Shown here one piece after another: positions 11,706-33,409 of a stretch of 64,000 nucleotides of DNA. Every line of letters begins with the position of its first letter. Position 1 is the stretch's first letter. The translations under genes and the position numbers were made by a program. Source of the DNA: a virus; the IMG/VR virus record IMGVR_UViG_3300044713_000119, positions 1 through 64,000 of that record, one strand, 5' to 3'. A model generated the notes under the pieces. The model was not told the origin of the DNA and did not search any database. It saw only the letters and a list, made by a program, of their open reading frames with translations.

Positions 11706-11711
11706 TGGTAT

Positions 11712-14497: not shown

Positions 14498-14947
14498 TCA
14501 ACTGAGTGCCTGCTTGAGTTCTTCTGCGGCCGCATCGCGGGCCTTGAGTTCTTCGTCTGTTGGCTGTGTGCCAGGCCGCGAAGCCACGGGCTTGGGCATG
14601 GCGAGAATCGTGCGATTGAAATTGGTGACGTTCTCGCGCGTGACTTCTGCGGCAATCACACGAGGATTCCGGCTGCCAGTCTTTTTGGCTGCGCGCTGCC
14701 ATGGCGTAAGTGAACTATCGTCAATCTCCTCGACCTTGGGAGGTGCCGTGACCTGTGCTGGCGCATTCCTTACCCACTCTGGCCTTACTTCCATGTCGGG
14801 ATAAAGTGGTAGACCACTCGAGCGAAACGCAATCTGGTTGTGGAGTTGCTTGATCTCCAGTTCCATCGAAGCCATGCGCATCCTGGCGTCAGAAAGTGCC
14901 TGCTGCGCGTCCAGTAGGCGTGCGCGCGATACCCACGGCCAATTCAT
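14498..14947 (-). CDS. Hypothetical late protein with N-terminal coiled coil
   Basis: A 149-residue protein. Residues about 8-45 form a helix with heptad pattern (LDAQQALSDARMRMASMELE). The C-terminal part is charged and probably extended. Its ATG overlaps the stop of the exported 512-residue protein as TAATG, so translation is coupled. It sits just before the portal-associated small gene. Function unknown. Confidence 0.65.
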   Translation of the reverse strand: MNWPWVSRARLLDAQQALSDARMRMASMELEIKQLHNQIAFRSSGLPLYPDMEVRPEWVRNAPAQVTAPPKVEEIDDSSLTPWQRAAKKTGSRNPRVIAAEVTRENVTNFNRTILAMPKPVASRPGTQPTDEELKARDAAAEELKQALS

Positions 14948-16485
14948 TAGTTGACCCCGATCTTTCCACCTGCGCCGAGACCTGGACCCATGGTGGGACC
15001 TGGCTTTACTGTTACTCCGCCAATCAGCGGATGAGGGTAGGTGTACGGCGTGTAATTATTCGTGTAGATTCCGCAAGTACTCGGCTCCGTCGCACCTTGA
15101 CAGTAATCAATCGCCCCATTCAATGCTCCGCTAACCGAGTGCGCCGTGCCCTTGATGTAATTCGCCATTGTTCGTGTAGGCGTACAAGTATTCCCGCCTT
15201 GCGGCCCGTCCACGTTGACTGTCACCGAGTTGGTGCAACTGCCTCCGGTTGAGCAGCCCGCTTGCGACCCGTTATTCCAGAGCAGTAAGGGAATGCTGTT
15301 TATGGTCGAGCGCGTGCAACTACCTGCCGCGCATCCCGTGCCGATCTGTCCCGCACAGGGCCAGCCGGGGGCACTCGCGTCTCCCGCATTTCCATCGACG
15401 GCCTGACTGCCATCACAGGAAAGCATTGTCTGGTTGTTGCACTCGTATCCATAGCCACGGGTCTCGTCAACGTGGACGGTTTTATCGCCGTAGCCTTGAA
15501 TTGTGTTATTGAATATGACACCCGTTCCCGAGCCGAACCGCATCGGGTAATCACCGCCCGGACTCCCATCGGTATCATCGTAAGAGTTGTTATAGATTTC
15601 GTACTTGTGACCCTCGACTTCGCCGTTGTAGCAGAAACCTCCACCACCTCCACGTGTCCAGTGTCCGTAATGATACGTGGGGCCAGATACTGTGTTGTAG
15701 CGAAACACCATATGCTGACCGCCAGATTCCGCATCAGATACTGCTGCATTCTCAGCGGAGCCGGTATAAGTAAAGGTTGAGGTTTCTACATAAAGAGCAT
15801 TTTCCGTGCCCAAGCCGATAGCAGGCGTGCGCCAAGCATATTCACCTTCGTAGACAGTCGTGTTGCCCGGACTAGTCACGCATTCTGAATTAAGAAACTC
15901 GGCCTGTTCGAGAAAATTTCCGCCTTGCCATGTGACATTCCAGTGATCGAGGACGCCCCAGACTGGGCCATACTGGATCACGATATTCCCGCTAGAAGTG
16001 TAGTTGGCGGTGATGTGATCAACGCGAAAGAATCCCGCAAAGGAAGTCAGGTTGGGATTGCTGTTGTTGATATTGAGCAAGTCTCCGGTCGTGCTGCCAG
16101 TGAAAGTGAAGTTGGAAATTCTCCACGCTGCCGCCGTCGCTCCGGTATTCGACACGTTCACATCAAAAGCGTCGTTGGAAGTGTGAGTGATGGTCGTTGT
16201 TCCGCCGACCGACCCTAGGACTTCCACATTCTTGTTCGTCCACGACACTGGGCTACTCCATGAGCAGGAGCCGGACGGAACGTAGACCGCATCCCCGCCG
16301 AAAGCGTTGGGCGTGGTGACGCCGGTAGACCCTGTCCCCGATGCGGTGATGCAGGCTTGAACATCAGTTTGCCCGCAACTCGCAGCTAAGCGGCACGTCC
16401 CTGTCTCGCCATTGGTGCAACTGGTTACAGTACAGGCGGCGTGGGCCGAGACGCACAGTGCGAGTAGGATTAACCAGCGTTTCAT
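14947..16485 (-). CDS. Exported beta-helix protein (fibre or depolymerase type)
   Basis: A 512-residue protein starting at an ATG that overlaps the previous stop as ATGA; the open frame extends five codons upstream, but the coupled start puts the signal peptide at the N-terminus. MKRWLILLALCVSAHA is a Sec signal with predicted cleavage before ACTVTSC. The rest has many short strand-Asn-turn repeats (VDHITANYTSSGN, HWNVTWQGGN, FRYNTVSGPTYHYG, EIYNNSYDDTDG) that mark a right-handed parallel beta-helix, as in tailspikes and pectate-lyase-like enzymes. It contains an unusual number of cysteines (for example SCTRSTIN and CSTGGSCTNS), suitable for disulfides outside the cytoplasm. Virion spike or secreted polysaccharide-binding protein are both possible. 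Confidence 0.7.
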   Translation of the reverse strand: MKRWLILLALCVSAHAACTVTSCTNGETGTCRLAASCGQTDVQACITASGTGSTGVTTPNAFGGDAVYVPSGSCSWSSPVSWTNKNVEVLGSVGGTTTITHTSNDAFDVNVSNTGATAAAWRISNFTFTGSTTGDLLNINNSNPNLTSFAGFFRVDHITANYTSSGNIVIQYGPVWGVLDHWNVTWQGGNFLEQAEFLNSECVTSPGNTTVYEGEYAWRTPAIGLGTENALYVETSTFTYTGSAENAAVSDAESGGQHMVFRYNTVSGPTYHYGHWTRGGGGGFCYNGEVEGHKYEIYNNSYDDTDGSPGGDYPMRFGSGTGVIFNNTIQGYGDKTVHVDETRGYGYECNNQTMLSCDGSQAVDGNAGDASAPGWPCAGQIGTGCAAGSCTRSTINSIPLLLWNNGSQAGCSTGGSCTNSVTVNVDGPQGGNTCTPTRTMANYIKGTAHSVSGALNGAIDYCQGATEPSTCGIYTNNYTPYTYPHPLIGGVTVKPGPTMGPGLGAGGKIGVN

Positions 16486-17243
16486 TTGAACGTCCCGCAA
16501 AGAATCGCCGCTGCTGGCGTCGATGAACTGTAGGTAATCGGACAGTTCTGCGAACCGGAGGAAGATAAGACTTGGTACTCAGCCTCACTCTTGAAACTAC
16601 TCGACGACCCAACGATACCCCCAATGAGCGTAAAACTACTCCCCGCCGTAAAGGTGAAGTTGCCCGTGATGGAGCCTAACCCAAACGCTAAATCCGCTGA
16701 GCCCGTAGGATTGATCGTTGCCGTAACCGATGTTGACCCGGAGCCGACGGTCGCGTGCCCCGGTGTTCCGTCCACTGCTCCGGTTCCACCTGTGTAAGTG
16801 ATGCAGTCAATAATTGGTTGATTCTGCGTGGCCCCGGTGACGCTGAAGGTCGAGGTTGATGGCGAGTGAGTAATGGAGAACGAAGTAAATAACTGATAGT
16901 TGCCTGTTGTGTTCGTGTTGTCGAGATAATTGCTGCCGTCTGCGGTATAAGTGTTCGGCGTGCTTGCGTTGTCCGTGACGCTAAACGGTGTGTCCCCGCC
17001 ATCATTGAAATTACCTACTGCACACACGATATTTTCGCCCACACTAGGATTTACGCTCCAAGTGCAAGTCGGATTACTGAAGGTGTTTTGACCTACGCAT
17101 GTCTTTCCAGTGACGGTGATTCCTGACGCCGCTGTGCCGGGAAATACCGTGGTTTTAGGCAGGATTGTGGTCTTGGGTAGAACAGTCGCACCCTGTCCGA
17201 AGGCGAGAGAGCAGAGAAGCGGAATCCAAAGGAGGCGTCTCAT
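16482..17243 (-). CDS. Exported beta-rich protein, unknown function
   Basis: A 253-residue protein. The start at 17243 overlaps the stop of the giant fibre gene as TAATG, and places the signal sequence MRRLLWIPLLCSLAFGQ at the N-terminus; the seven extra codons upstream are not needed. The mature part is Ser/Thr/Gly-rich with paired cysteines (KTCVGQNTFSNPTCTW, CAVGNF, IDCITYTGG, QNCPITYSS). This resembles secreted adhesion-type beta-sandwich domains found in Acidobacteriota proteins. It is translationally coupled on both sides, so it is part of the exported fibre set from 22.4 to 14.9 kb. Confidence 0.65.
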   Translation of the reverse strand: MRRLLWIPLLCSLAFGQGATVLPKTTILPKTTVFPGTAASGITVTGKTCVGQNTFSNPTCTWSVNPSVGENIVCAVGNFNDGGDTPFSVTDNASTPNTYTADGSNYLDNTNTTGNYQLFTSFSITHSPSTSTFSVTGATQNQPIIDCITYTGGTGAVDGTPGHATVGSGSTSVTATINPTGSADLAFGLGSITGNFTFTAGSSFTLIGGIVGSSSSFKSEAEYQVLSSSGSQNCPITYSSSTPAAAILCGTFK

Positions 17244-20200
17244 TAGAACGGCCCTACTGTGCAATACGCCCCGCGATAAATAGTGAGCAAGTCGCCGACG
17301 GTTGGATCGATTACCTGAAGACTGACGACCGTTCCAGAAGCCGATGCGCCTTCAATCCAGGCGTCAATGTCATATGGCATCTTGGTAGCCGTAGCGCCCT
17401 GTGTCCAGGTTCCGCCGATGGTGATTGAGGAAGTCGTTGAAGCCGTATCCGTGGTTGATCCGCCAGCCGCAACCGCCGCCGCCGTAAAACCGCTATAAGA
17501 TGCGGTGACATTGGTCGCGCCGTTGGTCGCCGTGATCATGGCCCAGTTATTCGCTGGCGTGGCTGTGGTATCGGTGACAATAACGTGGCAATGGAAATGC
17601 CACGACTGTGCGCTCAGAGGCAGAGTAAGAGTAAGCGGCGTTCCGGTTGAGCCAACAATGGTCGCTGAGGTACATGAGGATACCGTGCCGCCCGTTCCGC
17701 AAGTCCAGTCCGCCGTCATAAAGACGCGGTTCGATGCGAAGTTGACAAACTCTGACGAGGTAACAAGTACGTTGTCCGTGATTGAGGACGCGGCAATCTT
17801 AGAGGTCGTGCCGGAAGCCTTTGGGATTACGTTAGCGCCGATGATGGACGCCTCGCCGACCGCGCATCCGAGGTTTACGGTCTGGTCGATGATATCTACG
17901 CAATGCAGGGTCGAGTCGTTATATTCTCCGTACTGAGTTGAGGTTCCAGTAAACGCCGTGCCCTCCGTGGCTGCCCAACCGCCCGAGCTACCGTTAGTAA
18001 GAGCCGCCCCGAATGCCCCGAAGTACCCTTCTCCGAGGTAGTCCACGCCGAAGATTTGGCCGCCGCCGTTGATATGCGCATCAATCAGGTTTCCTGCGAA
18101 TCCGTTCGGGCTGTTGATTCCAAACTCTGTGCCAGCAGTCGAGAGCGTAGTCGGGCCAGTGCCGTCGTTGATATAAACCAGCGGGAAGTTAGTGGTTGCC
18201 GAGCCAGCTGTGTATGGCGCTCCGGTCGCGTAAAGAGACGCCTGAGACGCTGTGCCCCCGTAGGACGTAAAGAGGGGCTCGGAAGTGGTAACAGTCGTTC
18301 CGTTGTCAGTGATGGTGCTATTTGCCACCAGCATATTACCGCTTGCGATGACGGCCTTTGGGAGCACGTTGGTCGTCAAGGCAGCCGCACTGTTTAGGAA
18401 AAGCGAATCAGCCCCGTTCACGTAACCGTGGTAGTTATTGTTGGTTGAATCGAAATCAATCGTGCCGGCAGCAGTAGCCGTGTTTCCTGCGGCCACTGGC
18501 ACCTTCAGTCCAGCGGTGCTGGTAATCGCAGAGAAATCCACCAGCCCGGAGGCACCGCCGGTCAGTGTGTGGGTAACATAAGTGAAATCGCCGTTGCCTG
18601 TAGCTGGGGCTGTGCCAGCGCCTCCGCCTACAACCAAGGCATGTGCAGCCAACAGAGCCGATGACGACTCCTGTGTTGTTGAACTGAAGTATGGAATCCC
18701 ACCAGAAACCACCGTCCCTGATACCACTAATGGGAACGATCCCCCAGGCGCGGTCCCGAGGACGGCAGTATTCATTTTGATCAGCGGCAACGTGGTCGAC
18801 GCCGTAAAGGTTGTACCATCTGGCAGCGTCCATGCCCCTGCAACTGCGGCTACGACGCCAACCGTTGCACCTTGCGCGCTGGTGCAAGTCGCTGTTCCAG
18901 CGCTATCGGTGATCTGACCGGCCGTACCGCCTGCGCAAACCGTGTGCCCGAGCGTAACCGCCCCCGAGGCATTGATGGGTACGAGACTCGGAGGGGAAAC
19001 GACGACGTTGTAGTTTGATCCAACAGTCTCAATGACGCCGACCCATGACGATGGCGACGCGCCACAGTTCTTTGTGGTCATGGCGGCCGAGAAGCATGCC
19101 AGATCCCATTGCGTCGACGTAGAAGCCGTCACATAGACATCGCCCCACAGAACTAGACCCTGAAGCCCTTGGGTTGCCCCGGTGCTGGCACCAGCCAACA
19201 ATTCCACACCGCCACCTTGGCTCGCCGCGTTGGTGGCGGCGTTGGTTCCGCCTTCGACTAATGCGCCGCCGCCTTGAGAACTAGCTCCACCCGCGCCGGT
19301 TTCATTGGCGCCCTGCAAGATAGCGGCTCCAAGCGCAGAGTTGGCACTGGCATTCGCGCCACCGCCGTAGGTAACAGCCTGAGTGCTAGTGACGTCGCTG
19401 ATTGCGCTACTGCTTTCAAGAAGAGCCGAGTTGACGGTGTTGCCGTTCGAATCAAATTTGGTGATGCGGTTGGTGTTGACGGTTCCGGTCGAGAGTTGCA
19501 GATTCGCGCCGTTGCCCTGCTCCCCGCTTACTCCCGAAATAGCAATCAAACCACCAGAGCTGATAGTTACCGGACTAGTCGCGCTCAACGCTCCGCCGCT
19601 CGTCGTCGTCGCACAGGTCGGACACGACAAGGTGTTGGTGCTGACACTCAACGGAGAACTGATCGTCGCCGTGAGATCGCTCAACGCTGGGCGGGTGGCC
19701 GTAAAGACCCCAGATGTTCCGACAGAAGCCAGCCACTCATGAGAACCGCCAGCATTCGCGACAACGGTTGTTCCAACCGTGCCAGCGCTCCCTTCGTCAT
19801 GCAGCCGGTTATCGGTCGAATCTACCCAAACGTTCTGTGTTCCTGAGGCCGGCGTGCTCGGCGCTGTAATCGCCGGGAATGTCATCCCGTTAAAGGCTGG
19901 GACGGTAGCAGATCCTGTGGCGAGGCCAGCGGCAATGATTGAGCCGGTAATATCGCCCGCTGTTCCGTTACCGACATCGACTACGCCGGCCGACCCGCGC
20001 GAAAGACCTGTGTCCGCAGTACCAGAACCGTTGGTCCACTGAATCGAGCCGGAGAGAAACTGATTCCGCCAGCGGAGACCAAGGCTGCCAAGATCGATCG
20101 ATGCATCAGCACCAGGAGTCAGCGAGGCATTTACGGCGACAGCAGAGAGGTTCGACAGAGCGGTGTTCGCGCCGCCGGCGCCAGAGTTTAACTGCTGAGT

Positions 20201-21637
20201 CCACGTGTTTGTGGAGGTGCAGTAGTACATGTTCTGTCCCGCGGTAGCATCCGTCGCGAAGTATTCTTCACCTTGAGTACAAGTAGCAGGGATGCTGGCC
20301 GCCCCGCCCTTTAGGGCCGGTTGCGTGTGGGTTGCACCGCCAAAGTTTACGACGCCCGTTCCAGTGACACCGACAAAGACGCCATTGCCACTGCCGTCGA
20401 CCGTGGAGTTCGTGCTTCCGAGTTCGAGTTTGCCCGTACCCTTAGGCAGCAGTTCAAGGTTGATGTTTGAGTCACTTCCGGTTCCGGCAATCTGGACCGT
20501 GGCTGGATTCGCGGTGGCGGCGTTTGTCACCGTTACGCTGTCGACCGCCGAAGCGGTTGCGCTCGAGAGTAAGAACGGATTCCCATTGCCATCGTTGATG
20601 GTAGTGATATTCGGGCTGGTGAGCGTCTTCCCGCTCATCGTCTGCGTGCCCGTAAGGTTTACAAGGGTATCCGAGCCAGTGGGAATCTTTACCGTCCCTG
20701 AGATCGCTCCGGTGACTGGCTCAAGTGTCAGAGTGCCGCTGGTTGCGTTACCAAAGGTCAGAGAACCAAGAGTGCCGGAAGCGCCAAGGGTAGGAGTCGC
20801 CGTGAAGGCGGGTGTCGCTCCTGCGAGCACCTGGCCCGCTGCGCCGGTGATTGAGATCGTACCTGTGGTGGTAATGGGTCCACCGGCAAGCGGAGCCGAG
20901 ACAGCTACGGAGGTTACGGTACCAGACCCACCCCCAGAGGACTGCTGGGTAAACGTATTCGTCGCAGTGCAGTAGTAGAGGTTTTGCCCTGCTGTGGCGC
21001 TTGTCGAGAAGTATAGTTCGCCAACCGCACAGGTAGCAGGGATGCTGCCGATCGCTCCGGTAACTACCGGAAGGCTATGGGTAACCCCGGACCAATCTTG
21101 TGTTCCGGTGGTCCAGGCATTCGACTGATCTTTGAAGACTGCACTGCTGATAATGCGATTTTTGGCAAGCGTGCCCGTCCAACCAAGTGTCAAGGCGTTC
21201 GAAGAGATGGAACCGGTCACGTTCGTATCGTTGACGACAGATGTGGGCACCGAGGTACCAAGGATGCCGCTGTCGGTTGGCTGGCCAGATCCATTCCAGC
21301 CAGCAAGATCGCCGTTGGTGGTCGGAGAGATCAGTTTTAACGTGGCGCTGTGGAAGTCCCAAGTGTTACCGCTTGCTGTAAACGTCCCAGCGTTCGAGTT
21401 CGTCGCCGCCGTGATACCGCTCCAAGCAGTCGCTCCGGTCGCACTCGCGGTCATGGTTACCACGCCGCCAGAGAACGTGCAGGTCAAGTTCGTGGAGCAG
21501 TTGATGGGCAGCCAGGTATTGAACGTGCCGATGGGCGTGCCAGCGCTTTGAACCTGTACAGTCAGTCCACCATGGCTTTGAGCGAACAATGGAGCGATTA
21601 GGCAGAACAAGACGATGGCAATACGTAAACGTTTCAT
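17243..21637 (-). CDS. Giant exported fibre-like protein
   Basis: A 1464-residue protein with signal peptide MKRLRIAIVLFCLIAPLFA followed by Gln-Ser. It is built of Thr/Ser/Gly/Ala-rich strands with little charge. A module with the pattern SIPATC-x4-E-x-YF-x-T-x-ATAGQN-x-YYC-x-TNT-x-TQQ occurs at about residues 196-231 and again at about 447-482; cysteines are conserved in both copies. The middle carries repeats of the ATSxxxxxxGSLTFGNATSG kind common in tail fibres, and the C-terminus (about residues 1350-1464) reads as a compact beta-sandwich. Size and composition say receptor-binding fibre, but a Sec signal is not expected on a virion fibre assembled in the cytoplasm. Its ATG overlaps the upstream stop as ATGA. 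Confidence 0.7.
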   Translation of the reverse strand: MKRLRIAIVLFCLIAPLFAQSHGGLTVQVQSAGTPIGTFNTWLPINCSTNLTCTFSGGVVTMTASATGATAWSGITAATNSNAGTFTASGNTWDFHSATLKLISPTTNGDLAGWNGSGQPTDSGILGTSVPTSVVNDTNVTGSISSNALTLGWTGTLAKNRIISSAVFKDQSNAWTTGTQDWSGVTHSLPVVTGAIGSIPATCAVGELYFSTSATAGQNLYYCTATNTFTQQSSGGGSGTVTSVAVSAPLAGGPITTTGTISITGAAGQVLAGATPAFTATPTLGASGTLGSLTFGNATSGTLTLEPVTGAISGTVKIPTGSDTLVNLTGTQTMSGKTLTSPNITTINDGNGNPFLLSSATASAVDSVTVTNAATANPATVQIAGTGSDSNINLELLPKGTGKLELGSTNSTVDGSGNGVFVGVTGTGVVNFGGATHTQPALKGGAASIPATCTQGEEYFATDATAGQNMYYCTSTNTWTQQLNSGAGGANTALSNLSAVAVNASLTPGADASIDLGSLGLRWRNQFLSGSIQWTNGSGTADTGLSRGSAGVVDVGNGTAGDITGSIIAAGLATGSATVPAFNGMTFPAITAPSTPASGTQNVWVDSTDNRLHDEGSAGTVGTTVVANAGGSHEWLASVGTSGVFTATRPALSDLTATISSPLSVSTNTLSCPTCATTTSGGALSATSPVTISSGGLIAISGVSGEQGNGANLQLSTGTVNTNRITKFDSNGNTVNSALLESSSAISDVTSTQAVTYGGGANASANSALGAAILQGANETGAGGASSQGGGALVEGGTNAATNAASQGGGVELLAGASTGATQGLQGLVLWGDVYVTASTSTQWDLACFSAAMTTKNCGASPSSWVGVIETVGSNYNVVVSPPSLVPINASGAVTLGHTVCAGGTAGQITDSAGTATCTSAQGATVGVVAAVAGAWTLPDGTTFTASTTLPLIKMNTAVLGTAPGGSFPLVVSGTVVSGGIPYFSSTTQESSSALLAAHALVVGGGAGTAPATGNGDFTYVTHTLTGGASGLVDFSAITSTAGLKVPVAAGNTATAAGTIDFDSTNNNYHGYVNGADSLFLNSAAALTTNVLPKAVIASGNMLVANSTITDNGTTVTTSEPLFTSYGGTASQASLYATGAPYTAGSATTNFPLVYINDGTGPTTLSTAGTEFGINSPNGFAGNLIDAHINGGGQIFGVDYLGEGYFGAFGAALTNGSSGGWAATEGTAFTGTSTQYGEYNDSTLHCVDIIDQTVNLGCAVGEASIIGANVIPKASGTTSKIAASSITDNVLVTSSEFVNFASNRVFMTADWTCGTGGTVSSCTSATIVGSTGTPLTLTLPLSAQSWHFHCHVIVTDTTATPANNWAMITATNGATNVTASYSGFTAAAVAAGGSTTDTASTTSSITIGGTWTQGATATKMPYDIDAWIEGASASGTVVSLQVIDPTVGDLLTIYRGAYCTVGPF
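20191..20300 (-). repeat. Fibre module, second copy in protein order
   Basis: These 110 bases code the SIPATC...AGQN...YYC...TQQ module and correspond to the 110 bases at 20941-21050, exactly 750 bases away. Exact shared stretches include GTAGCAGGGATGCTG (plus-strand reading). The even spacing shows an in-frame intragenic duplication. Confidence 0.75.
20941..21050 (-). repeat. Fibre module, first copy in protein order
   Basis: This is the partner of 20191-20300 within the 1464-residue fibre-like gene. The protein pattern is kept more strictly than the DNA, so the duplication is not recent or is under selection. Confidence 0.75.
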
Positions 21638-22035
21638 TGGGCGGAAACGACCTCCAGCGTCAAGTTGTAAGTAGCTCCGCGGTAGAGCACTGGAACATAG
21701 ACCGTTGCGTCCATTTCACCGTCGTTTGGAGCTAGAACCCCAAAGGCTTCGTGGGTAAAGCCGTTCTTGTCCTCAAAGCCATCGTAAAGATCGTCAAACT
21801 CAACCTCTTGGTCACCAACAAAATAAGAGGCTGCGCCGCCACAGCGCCACGGAAATACTGGTTTACAGGTCAAGTGAATCGTTACCCAGTCGCCATGGTG
21901 GACATCGATGGTCTGCTCGCTGGTGTCGGTTGTGGTCCACTGAATAACGGTGCTGATGTCGGCGCGAGGCACTTCCTGGGCAGCAAGAGAGAAGGCAAAT
22001 AAGAGACTCGCAACAAACGTGACTAACTGTGCCAT
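21634..22035 (-). CDS. Small exported protein, unknown function
   Basis: A 133-residue protein with signal sequence MAQLVTFVASLLFAFSLAA and likely cleavage before Gln-Glu-Val-Pro. The mature part is a beta-rich domain with many acidic residues (VGDQEVEFDDLYDGFEDKNG) and two cysteines (TCKPVFPWRCGG) that could form a disulfide. It overlaps the 129-residue gene by 13 bases and the giant fibre gene by four, so the three are one translational unit. Function unknown; it may assist or bind the fibre outside the cytoplasmic membrane. Confidence 0.7.
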   Translation of the reverse strand: MAQLVTFVASLLFAFSLAAQEVPRADISTVIQWTTTDTSEQTIDVHHGDWVTIHLTCKPVFPWRCGGAASYFVGDQEVEFDDLYDGFEDKNGFTHEAFGVLAPNDGEMDATVYVPVLYRGATYNLTLEVVSAQ

Positions 22036-22412: not shown

Positions 22413-22416
22413 GGGA

Positions 22417-23089: not shown

Positions 23090-23506
23090 GGGAGTATTTT
23101 AGGGCCGCGCTTCGCTGCGGTGCCGACTCAAGTAGGTGGACACGTCACCAGACATTTCCCGAGGTCTCTGCACCCCGGCTCTAGGAAGATAACTGGATCG
23201 CGGCCGCATCCAGGTTTTCCCGCAGCAAGCTTCGTTCAAATCCACCACACTTCGCGGCGCATATCGTTCGCGTTGTCGTGAGGAGTAGCGAGAGGATGGC
23301 GCAAGTGAATCTCGGCGGTCGCTTGCAGGATCAGCACGCTGCCGAAGACGATCAGAAAGAGCAACGCTAACACCATCCGTGTTCGCTGGTAAAAATTCAC
23401 AGTCCTACAGGATGTTCCCGATTGCGAAAGGTGAGCGATATTGCTCAGACTTGGTTCTGCCAATTCCGCTTTAATACCCTCCATCCAGCCAGAAAGGAGT
23501 TGTGTC
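23090..23506 (-). other. Stretch without a secure gene; two weak minus-strand frames
   Basis: One minus-strand frame at 23236-23376 would encode a 46-residue single-span membrane peptide (MVLALLFLIVFGSVLILQA, then a basic tail); it is part of a longer open frame reaching 23508, where AAGGG precedes an ATG. Another at 23099-23241 gives an Arg-rich peptide. The 23236-23376 frame could be a lysis-related membrane peptide since it follows the lysozyme, but its start lies antisense to the start of the plus-strand gene at 23507. I could not choose between them. Confidence 0.35.
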
Positions 23507-23656: not shown

Positions 23657-23663
23657 CCACTCT

Positions 23664-23700
23664 GCTCGGGGCTGTGGCGGAACACGGCTCCGAGCCTTTT
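23664..23700 (+). terminator. Rho-independent terminator of the 49-residue gene
   Basis: GCTCGGGGCTGTG pairs with CACGGCTCCGAGC over thirteen base pairs including two G-U pairs in RNA, around a six-base loop, followed by CTTTTC on the plus strand. No T-run follows on the minus side, so it is directional and does not obviously stop late leftward transcription. Confidence 0.8.
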
Positions 23701-24665: not shown

Positions 24666-24677
24666 ACGCGGCAGAGG

Positions 24678-24935: not shown

Positions 24936-24995
24936 GATAAGTTTCTCCGTGTTCCTGAGTATTTTGCCGAAGATTGAGAATGGATTCCACACACG

Positions 24996-25745
24996 TTACG
25001 CGACCAGCTTCGGTAAATCTGCTTCGAGTGCTGCTAGATCAAAACCGCTGGGCGTGAGCTTCGTCGCCTGGTTCAGCCAGTCTTGGGTGATAACGGCGTA
25101 GCACTCCACTACTCGTTTCAAGAACCAGTTCCAAATCATCCCTTGCCGCTGTGCCCAAGAAATGCAGTTGGTCCCCTCGTGGCCATAGCCGAAATGGGGC
25201 ACCGAATGCCGGCCGAGCAGGGCGCCATCCTGCGGAGTGAGCGACCAGGGCTGGCCGGAATTGAACTGCTGCATATCGGTTTCATAGACTTCGATGCCCA
25301 CGTCTACTCCGCCGAAGATCCAGATCGCTCGCTTCACATCATCGAGGTTTGCAGCGTTGACGTTTCCCCAGCCAAGAATCTTGTGACCGGCGATGCCAGT
25401 CACGCGCCAATATTCTAAAACTGTGGGGATGTCGGCACCGTTGTCGTTCAACCCAGTCTTGGGATCGTACCCAGAGACCGCGCTATAGGCGGTGATCACA
25501 TCGTCCAGCGTCGGCACTACCATGGTTCCAGTGTGTGCGGTGACCAGCATCAGCATGTGCGCGATGGCTGCGCAGGTGCAGTCGCCAAGTTGGTCATTGG
25601 CAAAATACTCCCACATCCCTGCGGGCACTTTGTATTCTCGAAACACCTTGCCCGGAACCTGTTGGGGATCAGCGGGGCCCAGATACTGTGACAGGCTGAG
25701 CCCCTTTGCTGAACTTGCTTTCGGTGGTAGGCAGCCAAACTTCAC
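24996..25745 (-). CDS. Papain-like cysteine peptidase
   Basis: A 249-residue protein with the papain-fold order of active residues: an oxyanion Gln and nucleophile region at residues about 52-60 (QLGDCTCAA; either C56 or C58 is the nucleophile), a His strand at about 180-188 (RHSVPHFGYG), and the following polar-Trp strand (CISWAQRQGMIW). No signal peptide. Phages of this kind carry similar peptidases among late genes; they may cut cell wall peptides or other proteins. Papain-like enzymes next to a lysozyme suggest a second, peptide-cutting lysis enzyme, but a virion-maturation peptidase is equally open. Overlaps the lipoprotein gene by four bases. Confidence 0.65.
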   Translation of the reverse strand: MKFGCLPPKASSAKGLSLSQYLGPADPQQVPGKVFREYKVPAGMWEYFANDQLGDCTCAAIAHMLMLVTAHTGTMVVPTLDDVITAYSAVSGYDPKTGLNDNGADIPTVLEYWRVTGIAGHKILGWGNVNAANLDDVKRAIWIFGGVDVGIEVYETDMQQFNSGQPWSLTPQDGALLGRHSVPHFGYGHEGTNCISWAQRQGMIWNWFLKRVVECYAVITQDWLNQATKLTPSGFDLAALEADLPKLVA

Positions 25746-26356
25746 AGTTTGATCTGCTCCGCGGCCGCATCCACAGCCAAGTTGCCGGTTGGGAATGCCA
25801 GCAAGCGACTGAACGCCTTATTGAACTGGCCCTTATTCAGCGGCAACGTGTGTCCAGCAGCGTGAAACGCTTCCATGGTGCTCACACCCTGCAGCACAGG
25901 AATCAGAGCCTGTAAGGATTGCAGTTCCGCTTCGACCGCCCCGACGAGAGCCTCGGCCTTCGCTTGGACCGCAGGATCATCAATGTGCAGAGCCGGCAGA
26001 ACCTTCGCCCAGTTCTGAATCACAACTTCGATCGCGTCGTTGATCTGCGTGAGGATAGCGACTTTTCCAGCTGCGCCTAGAGCCGTGTTGTACTGATTGA
26101 TCAGCGGCAGGATGACGTTATTCAGGTCGTTAGTCGCTTCTTGTGAGGCTGACTGAATCGTTGAGAACACATCCGGCGAGATCGCCGCGCCTGCAGCGGT
26201 CAACACCAGAAGAATAGCGTTGATGGCCGGCCCAAGAGCCGCAATGATGCCGGTAGCTTCTGAGACCCACTGAATTGCGCAGCCCGCCAGGTTGAGCGCG
26301 AGCAGGAACAGAAAAGCGATAAAGCAAACTTTCTGACGTCGGGAGATTCTTTGCAT
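25742..26356 (-). CDS. Phage-encoded lipoprotein
   Basis: A 204-residue protein. I start at 26356, where AAGGAAA precedes the ATG and the N-terminus becomes MQRISRRQKVCFIAFLFLLA then LNLAGC, a type II signal with lipobox LAGC and lipidated Cys26. After it come a Gly/Ala-rich hydrophobic segment (IIAALGPAINAILLVLTAAG) and helices with charged faces (QINDAIEVVIQNWAKVL, AEALVGAVEAELQSLQ). The predicted product is anchored in the outer or inner membrane and helical. Phage lipoproteins include Rz1-type outer-membrane spanins and superinfection-exclusion proteins. It is too long for Rz1, and the location beside lysis genes leaves both ideas open. Confidence 0.7.
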   Translation of the reverse strand: MQRISRRQKVCFIAFLFLLALNLAGCAIQWVSEATGIIAALGPAINAILLVLTAAGAAISPDVFSTIQSASQEATNDLNNVILPLINQYNTALGAAGKVAILTQINDAIEVVIQNWAKVLPALHIDDPAVQAKAEALVGAVEAELQSLQALIPVLQGVSTMEAFHAAGHTLPLNKGQFNKAFSRLLAFPTGNLAVDAAAEQIKL

Positions 26357-26411
26357 GGTGTTTCCTTTTCGTACCAAAATGCCCGCAGTCTTGCCGGGGT
26401 TGCCGCCTATC

Positions 26412-26594
26412 TTACCACAACACAAACTTGAAAGCTTTGAACACTGGGACGACGGTGTACTTGCCCACCGCCTTGATTCCGCGAGCCGAGCGATGGACGG
26501 GATGCTTGACCGCTTTCACTGTCCAATGCGCGAGATCCTGCGCTGGAGCGAGAGTTGCGAAAGCTAAGATGATGCCGAGGCTGAGTTTCTTCAT
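26412..26594 (-). CDS. Small exported basic protein
   Basis: A 60-residue protein with Shine-Dalgarno GGAGG eleven bases before ATG and signal peptide MKKLSLGIILAFATLAPA, cleavage before Gln-Asp. The mature 40 residues are His/Lys/Arg-rich (HWTVKAVKHPVHRSARGIKA) and end in aromatic-hydrophobic FKAFKFVLW. A cationic secreted peptide from a late operon could disturb the envelope at lysis; that is speculation. Its Shine-Dalgarno lies in the tail of the preceding 44-residue gene. Confidence 0.65.
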   Translation of the reverse strand: MKKLSLGIILAFATLAPAQDLAHWTVKAVKHPVHRSARGIKAVGKYTVVPVFKAFKFVLW

Positions 26595-26598
26595 GGTT

Positions 26599-26733
26599 TC
26601 AATGTCCTCCGTTTCCATTCCCATTTCCATTACCAGTTTTGTGCCACCTAACAGCCAATGCGGCCAGAAGTGCAAGGCAAATTGAGTTGATCGCCTGCAC
26701 GATCTGACCTTGAACGCAGTCCGAAATCACCAT
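26599..26733 (-). CDS. 44-residue membrane peptide with (Gly-Asn) tail
   Basis: A tiny gene ending five bases before the next start. MVISDCVQGQIVQAINSICL leads into a hydrophobic helix (ICLALLAALAV), then RWHKT and an almost perfect Asn-Gly repeat (GNGNGNGNGG). One membrane span with a flexible tail suggests a small holin-region or spanin-like peptide. Support comes from tight packing between two likely genes; no Shine-Dalgarno is clear. Confidence 0.5.
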   Translation of the reverse strand: MVISDCVQGQIVQAINSICLALLAALAVRWHKTGNGNGNGNGGH

Positions 26734-26773
26734 GTGTTATCGCCAAGCGTTTGCTTCTGGCTTCACGCCTGGA

Positions 26774-27001
26774 TTATGTCCGGTCGTTCCTTTTGTGGCC
26801 AAATACCGCATCGCAACGGCCTTTGAGTTCACGGAATTGCCCAACATGCTCCGTGTGGTCTCTGCGTGCTTCGTTAATCGCATCCCAGAGCGCAGTTTGA
26901 GTCCTTCGTACACCAGAAAGCATAAAGCCAAGCACCACACTGCCGACACTCCCCGCAAGACCAATGACTCCGAGGAACCAAGCATCAGGACTAATCCCCA
27001 C
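26774..27001 (-). CDS. Single-span membrane protein with cytoplasmic helix
   Basis: A 75-residue protein. I use the GTG at 27001, eight bases after GGAGG, rather than the TTG at 27016. VGISPDAWFLGVIGLAGSVG enters a hydrophobic span (about residues 6-28), followed by a charged helix (RDHTEHVGQFRELKGRCDAVFG). This plan occurs in small phage membrane proteins near lysis genes. A second open frame (26737-27003) uses the ATG six to seven bases after the same GGAGG, but looks like a composition shadow. Confidence 0.6.
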   Translation of the reverse strand: MGISPDAWFLGVIGLAGSVGSVVLGFMLSGVRRTQTALWDAINEARRDHTEHVGQFRELKGRCDAVFGHKRNDRT

Positions 27002-27038
27002 ATCGATTACCTCCAAGGCCAGAGAATAGGTTAGATGC

Positions 27039-27263
27039 CTAGGCTGCGGGTGGCTTTTGCCCGTTGCGGTACCACGCGTACAGAAACCCAGCCGTGCCGA
27101 TCAGCACCTTGGCAGTCTCCGGGATCGCTTTGTACCAGCCAAGAACCAAGTCATGAAATGGCGAGTAGCCCATGTAGGCCGCAGCCAGACCTGTTCCAAT
27201 CAGGGCCACATAGTGCGTCAACTGCGTTTGGTTGTCCATCAACGCTTTCAGTTTTGCCAGCAT
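27039..27263 (-). CDS. Two-span membrane protein, holin candidate
   Basis: A 74-residue protein with Shine-Dalgarno AAAGGAG six bases before ATG; the start at 27263 replaces a longer frame. Two hydrophobic segments are present (YVALIGTGLAAAYMGYSP at about 19-36 and AKVLIGTAGFLYAWY at about 53-67), separated by FHDLVLGWYKAIPET, with a charged N-terminus and a short basic end. Length, two spans and position in the lysis region fit a class II holin, which would open the membrane for the lysozyme at 23700-24131. Holins have little sequence conservation, so this is inference. Confidence 0.6.
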   Translation of the reverse strand: MLAKLKALMDNQTQLTHYVALIGTGLAAAYMGYSPFHDLVLGWYKAIPETAKVLIGTAGFLYAWYRNGQKPPAA

Positions 27264-27378
27264 GATTGGCTCCTTTGAGAAAGTGTAGGTGCGTCCCGGG
27301 ATTAAGAACAGCCGCTCTGGCCCTCTACTCCCTGAGTTCAGACGCACCCTTATCCGCGGTCAAGCCGCGAAGTGACTG

Positions 27379-29034
27379 CTAGTTGACCAACTCAACGTGC
27401 AAGTCCAGCAACTGTGGCCCGGTGGTCTCAGCCGAAGAGGTCTGGAGGAACACAACAAATAGCGTGTCCTGGTCCAGCACGTCTGCAGTGATTGCTCCGG
27501 TTGCCTGCTCGGGTGCCGAGATGGCCACTGTGGTTCCTGCCTGCAAGCCATCAATCAACCAGCCGCTAGGCATAATGCTGCCCGTTGCGCCCGTAGCGTT
27601 TGTATCCAAGTTGCACTGGAAACTCACACTGTAGGCTGCGGTGGTCGTGGTATGGGTCTCAAGCAACGTGCAAAGCACGATCGGAGTTCCGGTAGTGAAG
27701 TCGGTCAAATCTCCGAGTTCCACCGCAATTTCCGGCGCGGTGCCACCGGTGGTTGGGGTGTACGCTGCCTTGCCTGTAATCCGCAAGGTCTGACCGATGT
27801 AGTTCAGTACGCCCGCAGGCAACTGGATGGTGCCAAGAACGCCCGACTGTCCAGCCGTCAGAGCCACGGTATGGATAAATGGTCCGTAGTTGGTCTCAAA
27901 GCCTGGCAAGCCAAGATGCGAGGTAGGAGTAAAAGCAAACGTGGTGTGGCTGATTGGATTCGGATTGTAGGCCGCTGCCACGCCGCCAGCCTGCGGAACC
28001 AATTGGCTGTGGACGTAAGGTGTTGGGAAGACTCCGTTCGATCCGACTTCACCATACGCGGTGTTGGTGATCGCGCAGGTTGGGTACGGAGTGAACGGAC
28101 TCAGCGTACAAGTCGAGGACGTCACTGGTATTCGGTAAGCCGTGGTTAGATAGGCAAGCCCGATGTACGGCAGCCAGCCTACACAGCCAGTTTCAGCCGC
28201 CGGCGCCGTGAAGTTAATCGCGAGCGAGCCTGCTGAGGTGTAGTGCGCGGTAGTCGAGGCTGCACTTTCCCCACCAAGTACATCCACGCAAGTGACAGCT
28301 ACGTACTGAGCGGCGTTGGTCCAGGTACCGACCGCCGTGCCATCGCAAACGGTAGTCGTGCCACCGCACGTCGCAGTCGCAACTCGAACCGCCGGCGTGG
28401 TCAGAGCTGTCAGTGTGCTGGGCTGGATGGTGAAATACATCGGCGTGGACGCCTGGCCGCGGAAGTACTCAATGGTCATCCACCCAGGCAAGCCGTTCGG
28501 AGCCTGGCCGGTGATGTTGGCTATGGTCAGACCTGAATCACCACTGGCTGTGACCATGGATTCACCGCGGGCATAAGCATCGTTCAAAGCTTCCATCAGC
28601 CCGTTGTCGCCACTGCCAAGTTGCACATTCGCAGAGTGCGCATTGGCAAACGTTGCGGTAAACCCGCAATTGATAGGGTTGACAGCGCTCGGACCAGCAG
28701 CCGAAGGAGCGGTAATGGCTGTTGGAGTAACTGATTCCGAGTTCGCGCCATCGTAGATTTGGATGGGCACATTGACCGCAAAGATCGAGCCCCAGGCGAT
28801 TGCTTTACCATCGCTACCAACTCGCGGATTGCAGTTGTTCAAGGTAACGCTCGTCGAGGTTGCGGTGACGGCATTGAGGGTCTTGTCAGTCCAATTCGCG
28901 TAACTGGACACAAGGATTCTGCCAGCCTGTTGTGTAGGGTAGCCAGGCTGGACGGGAATGGCCTGACCGAACGCGCCTGCCAGTGCACTCAGGGTGATGG
29001 CAAGCAAGGACACTAGCAAACTTGTTCGTTTCAT
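27379..29034 (-). CDS. Exported fibre-like protein
   Basis: A 551-residue protein. The start at 29034 has AAGGAG about ten bases upstream and exposes signal peptide MKRTSLLVSLLAITLSALAG, then AFG before Gln-Ala. The mature protein is Thr/Ala/Gly/Pro-rich with few charges and several cysteine pairs (for example CVGWLPY, CTLSPFTPYPTC). The C-terminal 170 residues (from about GFETNYGPFIHTVAL) alternate strands like a beta-sandwich carbohydrate-binding domain. It follows the 1450-residue fibre. Function as secreted adhesin or virion fibre is undecided because of the signal peptide. Confidence 0.65.
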   Translation of the reverse strand: MKRTSLLVSLLAITLSALAGAFGQAIPVQPGYPTQQAGRILVSSYANWTDKTLNAVTATSTSVTLNNCNPRVGSDGKAIAWGSIFAVNVPIQIYDGANSESVTPTAITAPSAAGPSAVNPINCGFTATFANAHSANVQLGSGDNGLMEALNDAYARGESMVTASGDSGLTIANITGQAPNGLPGWMTIEYFRGQASTPMYFTIQPSTLTALTTPAVRVATATCGGTTTVCDGTAVGTWTNAAQYVAVTCVDVLGGESAASTTAHYTSAGSLAINFTAPAAETGCVGWLPYIGLAYLTTAYRIPVTSSTCTLSPFTPYPTCAITNTAYGEVGSNGVFPTPYVHSQLVPQAGGVAAAYNPNPISHTTFAFTPTSHLGLPGFETNYGPFIHTVALTAGQSGVLGTIQLPAGVLNYIGQTLRITGKAAYTPTTGGTAPEIAVELGDLTDFTTGTPIVLCTLLETHTTTTAAYSVSFQCNLDTNATGATGSIMPSGWLIDGLQAGTTVAISAPEQATGAITADVLDQDTLFVVFLQTSSAETTGPQLLDLHVELVN

Positions 29035-29056
29035 ACTTTGGATTCTCCTTGGAGAG

Positions 29057-32000
29057 TTATTGGGTTTGAACGACTGAAACATGGACGTCGTAGCTCACTG
29101 CTCCACCGCTGCAGGTGCCAGTGGTTAAAGTTGTGGTGTAGGAAATGTTGGTCGAAGAAGTCGCAAACGCCGGCACTGTACCGCCGATATACCCCGCAGC
29201 TACCGATTGTGTCGTCCCCAGAGTCAACGCTGTCCCAGGGGTAAAAGACCGTGCGTTCGAGCCATCCGTCCAATTCAGTGTGATGTTGACGGTTCCTGAT
29301 CCACTTCCGCAGAGCCCACTTTGGTCAAGGTAGTAGGTTGCGAGGAAACTGCCCCCGCTGGACGGCACCGCCAACGTCTGAGTCGAGAGGTTACCTGTCT
29401 GCCCGAGCTTATTCGAGACCGCATACACCGGGGTAAGGCCGACACCCACGGTCGAAGTGCCGTTGTAACTGGTGGCTAATCCTCCTATAGAAAGCGTTCC
29501 GGCTAGCGCCATATTGCCGCTCGAGTTGAGTGTCGAGGTGGCGGAAGGTGTCTGAACGGCTTCTGTGCCGCCACCAGTCACAATAGCCGTGCTCGTGAGC
29601 GTGGCCGCGCCGGTAACCACATTCGCTTTCGCGATGCCGCAGTCTTTTCCGTCAACTCCGACTGCTCCGCTCAGGTTATCGACACAAAGCAGATGATTGG
29701 TGGTCGGCGTGCCAGTCTGATTGAACCCCATCAGCGGCTCGGCGCCGGCGTTGTTTGCGTTGACTGATGGCCAATGGTTCGTAGAATCTCCGTAGATGAG
29801 ATCGAAGCCTGCTTCACCGGAGGGAGCAACCATTTCGCCTAGACTCAGGCCGCCTTGAGTCTCAAACGGCAAAGTCGCGAGCACACCATTACTGCCTGGA
29901 CCGGTACCGACATAGCCCTGGGTGCCAAAGATGGCGTTATTGAAGGTCAGTCCAACTGCGTCAAACGATAGCGGCGCGTTGCCGGCACCGTTGGTAATCC
30001 AATAGTTGTTCCCAAAGCTTGAGTTCTGAATCGTCCACTGACACTGGCGGGGGCTACCTCCGCCGCAAGCTGTAGAGCCGGAGGCGTTGAGGATTCGCAA
30101 GCCATCCGTCAGCACGCTTTGGCAGTAGTAGCCTTGATTGTCGTGGAAGTTCAGGCCATCGACAACCAAGGTGTCCACCGCCTGCCCATTTCCAAGGTTG
30201 ATACTGATTCCGTAACCAGCATCGCAGATCCGATTATCGTTGATCTCGATCTTACCCAGCAGACTAGGAGTGCCCGCAGGAGCTCCGGTGGTCTTGAAGA
30301 ACACCAGAAATCCGCCACTGCCATTATTGATAACCGTACCGCTTGAGTTCACGTTGCAGAGATAGGCTTTGTTGTGGTGAGCGTGTCCACCCAAGCCGCC
30401 GACCGAGTAGCACTCCGAGGCCACGTTTTGAACTGTGTTGTTTGCGATCTCCCAATCGGTCGCGGACGGAGTAATCTGCATGCCATGGCAGCCTGTTGCG
30501 GCCGAGGTATTGTTCCCGGTGCATGCCATGTCAGTACCCAAGTGGTCGCCGCCGACAACATCGTTCTCGAGGATGTTGCCCGAGTACAGAATGTTTTGGG
30601 TCCAGGCAAAGTGCCCGAAGGAAATCAGATTCACCGCGTACTGCGTGTTCGCGGTATCGTTGTCATAGAACTTGTTGTTGATGATCTGCTTCAGCCCAGG
30701 GTAAGGTCCGTTGGCGTTCGCATTCTGCTGCAGAGCTTGAGCGGAGTTCTGAGTAAACGTGTTGTTTCGAATCGTATAGGTATCTGAGTTCGTCAGATTC
30801 AGCCCAGCGCCGCCGCAATTGTTTACAAAGTTGTCTTCGAAGATAAACCCGCTCGAGACCCCAGCTGTGGTTGTGGCCACACAGATCATGCCGCTACCTG
30901 TATCACCGGACGCCAGTCGGTTGCCGTTGAATGTCATCTTCCGGATGGCCACATTCTGGATCGTTGAAGAACTGGCGCCGACCGTCAGCAACGTGCCCGC
31001 GCCTGTCGGGGTCGTGGCATTGATAATCGTCTGCCCGTAAACCCCTTCAAACTCAACACCGGAGACGGTAACGCTCATCGTCGTCGAGCCCAAAGTGAAC
31101 GCGCCAGCGGGCCAAATATATTTCACGTTCGCCTTGTTTGCCGCGAAGTTCGTCGTTACCGTGTTGGCGGCAGGGAGGTTATGACCATCGCAAACTCCAC
31201 CACCAGAAGGAAGAGCTGCGGTGCAGGAGTTGTACTTCGCGAAAGCGTCAGCACCTGAGCAGGTGCTGACATCGAGAACCGCAGTCGTAGCTGTGACCGT
31301 CGACGAGCTCGCAGCGGTGACGAAGCCGCACTGCTGGAACGTCGGGAACGTCGAGTAGTTTTGAGCCTTGACGAAGGCTGTGGTCGCAACTGTGGTCGAA
31401 CTGTCGCCTGTGGCCGGAGTTGGCGCGGTCGGTGTACCGGTCAGTGCGGGAGAAGCCAATGGGGCCACATTCGAAGATCCGCCTGCGGCTGTCCCAATCA
31501 AGAAGCCGCCCTGAGAACTAAGCGGTTGGGCTGGACCCGAGGCTGTGCAATTCGTCAGCGGCGAGTTGATCAGTTGATACGTGCCTGAGCCGCCAATGCA
31601 CTGGCCACCATTGCCTGTAATAGAGCAGTTTTCAATGATCGTGTTCGAACCAGAAACGTTGATCCATGGGCTCGGAATTACGCTGGCACCGTTGATGAAG
31701 GTTGCCGCAGTACATTTCAGGTGAAAATTGTTGCCTGAGATGAAGATATCCGCGCCAGCAACGAGCGCAAGTTGCACCGAGTCGAGGTTGATCTGGATGT
31801 CGTTCTGGGTGATCGTCAGAACCGAACTGCCACCCGCGCCGGTAGTCTGAGTTCCCGTCTTCTCTGTTTCGTCGCAAACCCCTCCGGTAGCTCCGGTAAG
31901 CAGCTCGTTCATGCAAGTGCGGAAATCTACGAACGGATCGGAGGTTGTTGGGAGACCAAGCCCGGAGGAATTGATTCGACGCAGGTAAGGCGCTAGCTGC

Positions 32001-33409
32001 GCAATCTGCTGGCTAGCTGACCCTGTGTCGCTACTCACATTCCAATAGAGATTCTGGCCAGCTTGGAAGCGAATGCTGCCACTTGTGGCATTCGGCTCCG
32101 TACCTGGGGTCGCGCAACTGGTTGTACTCAAACCGCCAACCACCGTGTCGTAACACCACATCCCCTGGGGAAAATTAAGAATGCTTCGTTGGGTGACGGC
32201 CGTACCGTTGTTTTTGATCAGGTTGTACCCACCACCACCACCGCCGCCTGAGGCTGAAATCGAGACTGCGTTCCCCCCGGTCGGTGTCAGTGTGATGTTC
32301 GAACCAGCAATCAGGTTCAACCCGGTCTGGCCAGCATTGTTGATGCTATTCGTCTGAAAGACCAACGGACCATTAAGGTCGCTGTAATTTCCTGAAAACG
32401 CTACGTTCGCCAGCGCGCGCCAACTCTGATTCCCAACCAAAGCCGTCGAGCTCGAGGCAATGCCTGTTCCCAACTGCGCCGTTGGCACCAACCCCATCAC
32501 CAAACTGGCTTTCGCAGCCAGCCCGTTGTCCACATACTGCTTTGTCGCCGCCTGAAGCGCGCTCACCGGATCCGCAGCCAGCGTGATTGCACCCGTCATG
32601 GTGCCACCGGTTAGCGGCAGGAATCCAGTGACCGTCGTCGGAATGTACTGCGAGCCGTTGTACCCAAGAAACTGACCCGCCATGGGTGCGGTGCTGTTTA
32701 CAGCCACTCCCTGAATCGAGGTCGCGTTCCCACTTCCTCCGGCCGCGCCCGGGGTGTAGCAGAGCAGGGGCGTTGACCAGATCAGCGCTTGCCCGTTCGC
32801 CGGCGCCGTGGTACACACTGCAAAGCCTTGAATCTGAGTCGCATTCGCGCCGGTCGCTGTTAGACCTGTGACGGTGATACCGGAGAAATCAACTGTGCCG
32901 GGACCCTTCCATGAGAACGTTGTGCCAGCCGGTTGCATGATCTTCTGATTCTGGGTGGGATTCGAGAAAATCAGGCCAAAGCCTGGCGGCGGCGGAGTGC
33001 CTGGTCCGAGCGAGAACGGCTGCGCTGTGGCGAGGTTGAAGGTGCTGCCTGCGAGAATCTGGTAGTTTAGGTCCCCAACTAATGGAGTCTGCTGATCACT
33101 CCAAGCTGTTACATGCCAAAGGGTTGAATAGGAGTTCCCGCACGTGATTTCATCATTGCCGTAGATCGTAGCCGGCAAATCGCTTTGGCGCAGGACGATA
33201 TGCTTTTGGACGATCGATGCGGGGATGGTCGGAACCGAAGGAACGTTGAATCCACAGTAGTTCAGATCCAACGTGATGTAGGCGAACGGGAGCGGCTGGG
33301 TGTTCGGTCCGACAAACGTTGCTGTGACTGTAGCGGTGGCGAAGGCTGGAATAACTGAGGCAGTGGCAAGCAGAAGTAGAGCGAAGAGACGAACGAAGAA
33401 TTTACCCAT
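29057..33409 (-). CDS. Giant exported fibre-like protein with beta-helix
   Basis: A 1450-residue protein. I start at 33409, giving signal peptide MGKFFVRLFALLLLATASVI then PAFA; the 49-codon extension upstream lacks a start signal. Near residue 270 the string FLPLTGGTMTGAITLAADP with a following ATKQYVDNGLA is the classic phage tail-fibre repeat. Two modules of the form ATxIQGxAVxxTAPxxGQ occur just before it. Residues about 600-1180 contain Asn-ladder turns (NCSITGNGGQ, TIRNNTFTQNS, KIEINDNRICDAG) of a right-handed beta-helix, and the C-terminus is a beta-sandwich. So the domain content is that of a tailspike or fibre, yet the N-terminus says Sec export. Its ATG overlaps the stop of a weak 57-residue frame. 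Confidence 0.75.
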   Translation of the reverse strand: MGKFFVRLFALLLLATASVIPAFATATVTATFVGPNTQPLPFAYITLDLNYCGFNVPSVPTIPASIVQKHIVLRQSDLPATIYGNDEITCGNSYSTLWHVTAWSDQQTPLVGDLNYQILAGSTFNLATAQPFSLGPGTPPPPGFGLIFSNPTQNQKIMQPAGTTFSWKGPGTVDFSGITVTGLTATGANATQIQGFAVCTTAPANGQALIWSTPLLCYTPGAAGGSGNATSIQGVAVNSTAPMAGQFLGYNGSQYIPTTVTGFLPLTGGTMTGAITLAADPVSALQAATKQYVDNGLAAKASLVMGLVPTAQLGTGIASSSTALVGNQSWRALANVAFSGNYSDLNGPLVFQTNSINNAGQTGLNLIAGSNITLTPTGGNAVSISASGGGGGGGYNLIKNNGTAVTQRSILNFPQGMWCYDTVVGGLSTTSCATPGTEPNATSGSIRFQAGQNLYWNVSSDTGSASQQIAQLAPYLRRINSSGLGLPTTSDPFVDFRTCMNELLTGATGGVCDETEKTGTQTTGAGGSSVLTITQNDIQINLDSVQLALVAGADIFISGNNFHLKCTAATFINGASVIPSPWINVSGSNTIIENCSITGNGGQCIGGSGTYQLINSPLTNCTASGPAQPLSSQGGFLIGTAAGGSSNVAPLASPALTGTPTAPTPATGDSSTTVATTAFVKAQNYSTFPTFQQCGFVTAASSSTVTATTAVLDVSTCSGADAFAKYNSCTAALPSGGGVCDGHNLPAANTVTTNFAANKANVKYIWPAGAFTLGSTTMSVTVSGVEFEGVYGQTIINATTPTGAGTLLTVGASSSTIQNVAIRKMTFNGNRLASGDTGSGMICVATTTAGVSSGFIFEDNFVNNCGGAGLNLTNSDTYTIRNNTFTQNSAQALQQNANANGPYPGLKQIINNKFYDNDTANTQYAVNLISFGHFAWTQNILYSGNILENDVVGGDHLGTDMACTGNNTSAATGCHGMQITPSATDWEIANNTVQNVASECYSVGGLGGHAHHNKAYLCNVNSSGTVINNGSGGFLVFFKTTGAPAGTPSLLGKIEINDNRICDAGYGISINLGNGQAVDTLVVDGLNFHDNQGYYCQSVLTDGLRILNASGSTACGGGSPRQCQWTIQNSSFGNNYWITNGAGNAPLSFDAVGLTFNNAIFGTQGYVGTGPGSNGVLATLPFETQGGLSLGEMVAPSGEAGFDLIYGDSTNHWPSVNANNAGAEPLMGFNQTGTPTTNHLLCVDNLSGAVGVDGKDCGIAKANVVTGAATLTSTAIVTGGGTEAVQTPSATSTLNSSGNMALAGTLSIGGLATSYNGTSTVGVGLTPVYAVSNKLGQTGNLSTQTLAVPSSGGSFLATYYLDQSGLCGSGSGTVNITLNWTDGSNARSFTPGTALTLGTTQSVAAGYIGGTVPAFATSSTNISYTTTLTTGTCSGGAVSYDVHVSVVQTQ

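Follow-up and report, generated by a model that had tools for sequence, protein, structure and literature searches.

Tail fibres of the textbook phages are made in the cytoplasm and added to the particle before lysis. Virion proteins whose Sec signal is cleaved before assembly are found in the filamentous phages, as pIII and pVIII. Phages also encode exported lipoproteins that act in superinfection exclusion, such as T5 Llp and TP-J34 Ltp, which are small single proteins. Phages of Porphyromonas gingivalis encode secreted proteins of unknown function that follow the Q-rule (PMC10367356), this rule, published for Bacteroidetes, being that most signal peptidase I (SPI) substrates have Gln at position +1 (PMC5837995). 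No description of an exported tailed-phage fibre was found in the open-licence papers searched.

The window analysed here comprises bases 1-64000 of a 66,691-base IMG/VR virus record from an uncultured tailed phage. Its structural genes are on the minus strand, with a fibre block at 14947-33409 that has the plus-strand early genes on one side and the rest of the structural genes on the other. Nearly nothing besides the terminase matches known families. The terminase large subunit (TerL) has approximately 24-28% identity to that of HMO-2011-like podoviruses (Pelagibacter HTVC115P, Roseobacter CRP phages), which places the phage near this group. A first-pass annotation claimed that eight late genes and one early gene begin with secretory signals, one being that of a lipoprotein. 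All nine starts are confirmed as opening Sec-signal frames (late 16485, 17243, 21637, 22035, 26356, 26594, 29034 and 33409, and early 50993), with one lipobox among them. The genes concerned, and those compared with them, are:

14947-16485, minus strand: third gene of the fibre cassette, a 512-aa Cys-rich, probably beta-helical protein; signal MKRWLILLALCVSAHA-A
16482-17243, minus strand: second gene of the cassette, a 253-aa protein; signal MRRLLWIPLLCSLAFG-Q, 6 mature Cys
17243-21637, minus strand: giant fibre, 1464 aa; signal MKRLRIAIVLFCLIAPLFA-Q, 18 mature Cys, D[LF]T[YF]xTHT fibre module
21634-22035, minus strand: predicted secreted protein, 133 aa; signal MAQLVTFVASLLFAFSLA-AQ, 2 mature Cys
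24996-25745, minus strand: papain-like peptidase-related protein, signal-free; PHROG 19005, E 5e-27
25742-26356, minus strand: predicted lipoprotein; lipobox LAGC
26412-26594, minus strand: small predicted secreted protein; signal MKKLSLGIILAFATLAPA-QD, Shine-Dalgarno GGAGG
27039-27347, minus strand: small neighbouring protein with one hydrophobic segment, a holin-like candidate from its size and segment
27379-29034, minus strand: appendage-like protein, 551 aa; signal MKRTSLLVSLLAITLSALAGAFG-Q, 10 mature Cys, Shine-Dalgarno-like AGGAG before 29034
29057-33409, minus strand: giant fibre-like protein, 1450 aa from Met33409; Sec signal MGKFFVRLFALLLLATASVIPAFA-TA, approximately 30 mature Cys
50993-51445, plus strand: early-strand predicted secreted protein, 150 aa; signal MKLYAMLLLIAATA-QSSS, 6 mature Cys
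51648-53183, minus strand: TerL; no signal
54673-63921, minus strand: giant protein, 3181 aa in the full record; no signal and no Cys after residue 30, in contrast to the fibres

The nine N-termini have a positively charged n-region (22035 excepted), an unbroken hydrophobic core and a cleavage site of SPI or SPII type, the SPI sites having small residues at -3 and -1. The signal at 22035 is weaker, because its MAQLV has no Lys or Arg before the core. In the lipoprotein, LAGC follows the core and matches the lipobox pattern [LVI][ASTVIG][GAS]C. It had also been proposed that the signals mostly end in Ala or Gly before Gln, and this is true for 16482-17243, 17243-21637, 26412-26594, 27379-29034 and 50993. 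A rule-based predictor gives a score of at least 5.5 to 9 of 69 called genes and to 3 of 287 alternative-frame ORFs; at 6 or above there are six called genes and no alternative-frame ORF. A further, weaker candidate is 23236-23508. Stop/start overlaps with the upstream gene back the starts at 16482/16485, 17243/17243, 21634/21637 and 22023/22035, and Shine-Dalgarno-like motifs precede 21637, 26594 and 29034. The least certain start is 33409, which has no clear Shine-Dalgarno. Signals are absent from the capsid- and tail-side genes at 301-14162, from TerL and from the 3181-aa protein.

Searching IMG/VR with 17243-21637 identified one relative (G001), a 73.6-kb myovirus-type record with a tail sheath, a baseplate wedge and no fewer than five appendage genes that bear signals; the contig ends apparently divide its giant fibre, whose signal is on the N-terminal half. 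Searches with 11712-14162, 27379-29082 and TerL gave no relatives in IMG/VR. A scan of IMG/VR with a DNA pattern for D[LF]T[YF][AV]THT matched 16 contigs, of which five were dropped, four being tail-sheath-like as judged from sequence and one a chance match. This left 11 phages, G001 included, making 12 with the window. The giant module-bearing fibre starts with a signal in all 12, usually followed by one or two more signal-bearing appendage genes. A strict signal rule missed four obvious cases (G006_21114, G006_15791, G008_21428 and G010_9062), which were recognised on inspection. The signal sequence differs in each of the 12 phages, with cleavage motifs kept and a lipobox in some. The hydrophobic N-terminus, whose conservation in relatives had been suggested as a check on export, is thus retained throughout, and signal-bearing fibres are not peculiar to the window phage, being found in at least 11 others with different backbones.

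These backbones are diverse. The window and G011 are HMO-2011-like and share the 3-kilo-residue protein (54673-63921 is 31% identical to G011_21889). A second podovirus-type group comprises G003, G004, G005 and G010, with similarity in terminase, portal or major head; G001 and G007 form a myovirus-type pair, and the others are the 103-kb phage G006 together with G002, G008 and G009. The modules of 17243-21637 are shared with the eleven other phages, mostly at 46-69% identity, and across unrelated backbones the fibre modules are mostly 46-71% identical, which implies transfer from phage to phage. A giant fibre, then a smaller signal protein, then a Cys-rich appendage is the gene order in the window as well as in G001, G008, G010 and G011, and G009 has it with one extra gene; counterparts of 16482-17243 occupy the same position in G001, G008, G009, G010 and G011, and 14947-16485 is 26% identical to G008_19285. 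That unrelated backbones share the modules speaks for a common selective pressure, which may lie in a single host clade.

Searches of Pfam, PHROGs, NCBIfam and PADLOC with the signal proteins gave almost no matches. The protein at 29057-33409 weakly matches PHROG 2332 (phage hyaluronidase, E = 1.8e-4), and its C-terminal modules are common to G005, G007 and G011. No homology to known fibres or spikes was found for 17243-21637 in the family libraries or INPHARED, and 27379-29034 has no family matches. The AlphaFold models of 14947-16485 (pLDDT 37) and 16482-17243 (pLDDT 39) are unreliable. The claim that three of the proteins are giant or beta-helical with tail-fibre repeats stands by motif for 17243-21637 and 29057-33409, and the beta-helix of 14947-16485 is no more than suggestive. 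For the name portal given to 11712-14162 there is no family support. Elsewhere in the window, 34246-35535 is C5 cytosine methyltransferase-like with an N-terminus matching PHROG 997 (replication terminator), 53820-54668, near the terminase genes, is a LAGLIDADG-like protein and possible homing endonuclease, and in the giant at 54673-63921 residues 750-871 form a domain that resembles 2'-5' RNA ligases (E 4e-11) and, less strongly, the anti-CBASS protein Acb1.

The peptidase-related protein at 24996-25745 is probably a neighbour or member of a lysis module, and its family is also found in G003, G009, Komagataeibacter phages and MW202816. No family was found for the holin-like candidate at 27039-27347. 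The lipoprotein has relatives in G001 (62848-63636) and G006 (52780-53385). The small signal proteins at 25742-26594, lying in this probable lysis module, may be of an ordinary kind. It is worth adding that early or isolated small secreted proteins also occur outside the fibre block, at 50993-51445 in the window and at 55618-56043 and 62476-62763 in G001.

Fibres usually are synthesised in the cytoplasm without a signal and have few cysteines; these traits are not strictly defining, and the signal proteins of the window and its relatives depart from them. On other IMG/VR contigs, none of 73 TQTLTNKTLT-repeat fibre ORFs with the N-terminus present has a signal, and most have 0-3 Cys. The same is true of signals in 17 fibres, spikes or neighbouring appendages from named records, including those of the Bacteroides phages B40-8 and crAss001 and of Cellulophaga phi38:1 (0/17).

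Proteins that fold in an oxidising compartment have paired cysteines. Of 40 curated signal proteins, 37 have an even number of cysteines in the mature chain and 3 an odd number (p = 1e-8), the split being 12:0 for the giants and 25:3 for the others; the giants are partly dependent through their shared modules, and the non-giants alone give p = 1e-5. Automatic signal calls give 32:6 (p = 1e-5). Because a looser signal rule brings in false positives, counts are given under both rules: with a fixed offset and the looser rule, the ratio is 47:16, or 43:9 for proteins with at least 4 Cys. Non-signal genes of the same phages are split 89 even to 88 odd, and the Cys density of the signal proteins is approximately twice theirs. 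The even counts suggest, independently of the signals themselves, that export is real, and the pairing suggests that the fibres fold outside the cell interior.

Gln is found at +1 in 29 of 40 phage signals with curated sites, a count that is partly circular. When the predictor takes no account of +1, Gln stands at that position in 18 of 48 phage signals (38%), in 10 of 36 from a Granulicella (Acidobacteriota) plasmid (28%) and in none of 6 from E. coli. This would fit, without proving, an Acidobacteriota-like or Bacteroidota host. No relative, and with it no host or prophage copy, came up in two scans of bacterial and archaeal genomes, and plasmids yielded none either.

Several observations connect the signal proteins to the virion. 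In G001, two signal genes (3415-6654 and 6633-7325) take up the fibre slot, with the baseplate-wedge gene on one side and a PHROG 587 structural gene on the other; in G007, a 2354-aa signal fibre comes after the wedge, PHROG 587 and a tail-fibre-like gene; and in the window the late signal genes stand in one minus-strand block together with structural genes. Directly behind its 23-aa signal, G008_28558 carries an anchor domain that shares 42-50% identity with podovirus tailspike N-termini; in the tailspikes of Xanthomonas PBR31, Pseudoalteromonas H6/1, Rhodoferax P26218 and others this domain begins at residue 1. Compared with these signal-free tailspikes, the anchor of G008_28558 has an added Cys pair in a hairpin, VYCAGTSTPCPTY. 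The anchor profile had no match to the N-terminus of 29057-33409, and only a hint of one to G008_22892 and G004_26615. Among the functions that the first-pass annotation had proposed, the tail-operon position and the anchor domain behind one signal favour attachment.

Some fibre-like proteins of the relatives have no signal. G010_17877 (17877-19850) carries a fibre domain that occurs without one: a 240-residue domain is common (31%) to this protein and to the signal-bearing G001 fibre at 3415-6654, and so may serve on both sides of the inner membrane. G001 1746-2495 and G007 7432-8448 are related signal-free proteins (45% over 108 aa) located between the baseplate genes and the exported fibre, the G007 protein matching tail-fibre PHROGs; they are candidate docking adaptors for exported fibres. 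Within the baseplate operon of G001, 6633-7325 is a probable lipoprotein with a tail-fibre-like NWGTLLNANFDMLD motif. No signal-free fibre was recognised in the window. A tail-fibre-like protein without a signal is encoded by G007 as well, so receptor binding might not fall mainly to the signal proteins.

The proposal that the phage exports fibre-like proteins is strongly supported by the signals kept in 12 of 12 phages, the signal-free controls and the paired mature cysteines. Their joining of the virion is our inference from gene position and the anchor domain. Our main reading, to which we give a probability of about 0.6, is that the fibres are Sec-exported, disulphide-bonded in the periplasm, and added to virions once the inner membrane opens at lysis. 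The host Sec pathway would export the appendage proteins of the late fibre cassette; signal peptidase I would trim them, often exposing Gln; and they would presumably fold in the periplasm with disulphide bonds. Opening of the inner membrane by the holin would bring the fibres together with particles assembled in the cytoplasm, and docking before or as the outer membrane breaks would yield virions with fibres matured outside the cytoplasm. In P22, finished tailspikes attach separately to particles, which makes late docking chemically reasonable. Against this reading, fibres released by lysis could diffuse off before docking; the negative anchor result for 29057-33409, the signal-free tail-fibre-like protein of G007 and the signal-free G010_17877 count against it too. 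The broader proposition, of a host-clade-wide pool of exported disulphide-bonded fibres that are swapped among unrelated tailed phages, so that the receptor-binding parts of the virion are matured in the periplasm and added at lysis as a second route of tailed-phage morphogenesis, stands in our judgement at even odds.

Signals and Cys pairing suit any exported protein, and the fibres might be exported and yet never join the virion, secreted or surface-held copies serving to cover receptors, prevent superinfection, trap rivals or alter the host surface. There are phage-encoded precedents in the superinfection lipoproteins and the P. gingivalis Q-rule proteins (PMC10367356), and a lipoprotein family accompanies several of these phages. 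We consider this possible but unlikely: the genes are in late tail operons, interleaved with baseplate genes, one protein (G008_28558) retains a virion-anchor domain, and several large proteins per phage exceed what masking needs, with other fibre candidates not recognised. Compatible with the main reading is a narrower form of it, in which the fibres join the virion and the proteins at 26412-26594, 25742-26356, 21634-22035 and 50993-51445 are ordinary lysis, envelope or superinfection factors. Lysis modules usually include lipoproteins and small secreted proteins, and the 25742-27347 group adjoins peptidase-like and holin-like genes; there are however no spanin or lysis family matches, and we judge the chances of this form to be balanced.

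That the N-termini are not working signals, but mis-called starts, leaders that recombination has left behind from a host, or hydrophobic peptides by which cytoplasmic fibres dock, is very improbable. Sequence cannot prove a start codon, least of all at 33409. However, the signal persists in every one of the 12 phages while its sequence changes and its cleavage motifs or lipobox remain, the Cys parity is unexpected for cytoplasmic proteins, and the control fibres have no such traits. Soil bacteria such as Acidobacteriota have many large secreted proteins, and the contigs could be bacterial adhesin islands or degraded prophage with host adhesins; this is scarcely credible, as genes for terminase, portal, major head, sheath and baseplate are present on the contigs and the signal genes sit within their operons.

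If whole soil-phage groups export their fibres, then folding, disulphide chemistry, the timing of assembly and the evolution of host range need a second model. Export as read here makes a direct prediction for which ordinary proteomics suffices, namely oxidised, signal-trimmed fibres on virions. A signal together with an even Cys count would serve as a metagenome marker for such fibres, which are unnamed in every family library tested.

Of the known systems, the HMO-2011-like podoviruses resemble the window phage in TerL, which is the sole match found; the two giant fibres have none in INPHARED. The tail fibres and tailspikes of Caudoviricetes (Xanthomonas PBR31 tail spike, lambda-like side tail fibres) have in common with the present proteins a late tail-operon position and giant repeat-built chains, and the relative G008_28558 shares their N-terminal anchor domain; the difference is that here a Sec signal stands in front and there are many paired cysteines, whereas the control fibres are signal-free and mostly Cys-poor. 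By description, filamentous phages extrude at the membrane, whereas the phages here are tailed, have dsDNA and encode a terminase, a baseplate and giant fibres. The P. gingivalis phage proteins (PMC10367356) likewise have host-style signals exposing Gln, but belong to Nixviridae with a Bacteroidetes host and are not described as fibres, and the Bacteroidota phages tested here have signal-free fibres. T5 Llp and TP-J34 Ltp are also phage-encoded and exported, and by description the lipoprotein at 25742-26356 could be one of this kind; they are small, in contrast to the giant fibre-repeat proteins found here.
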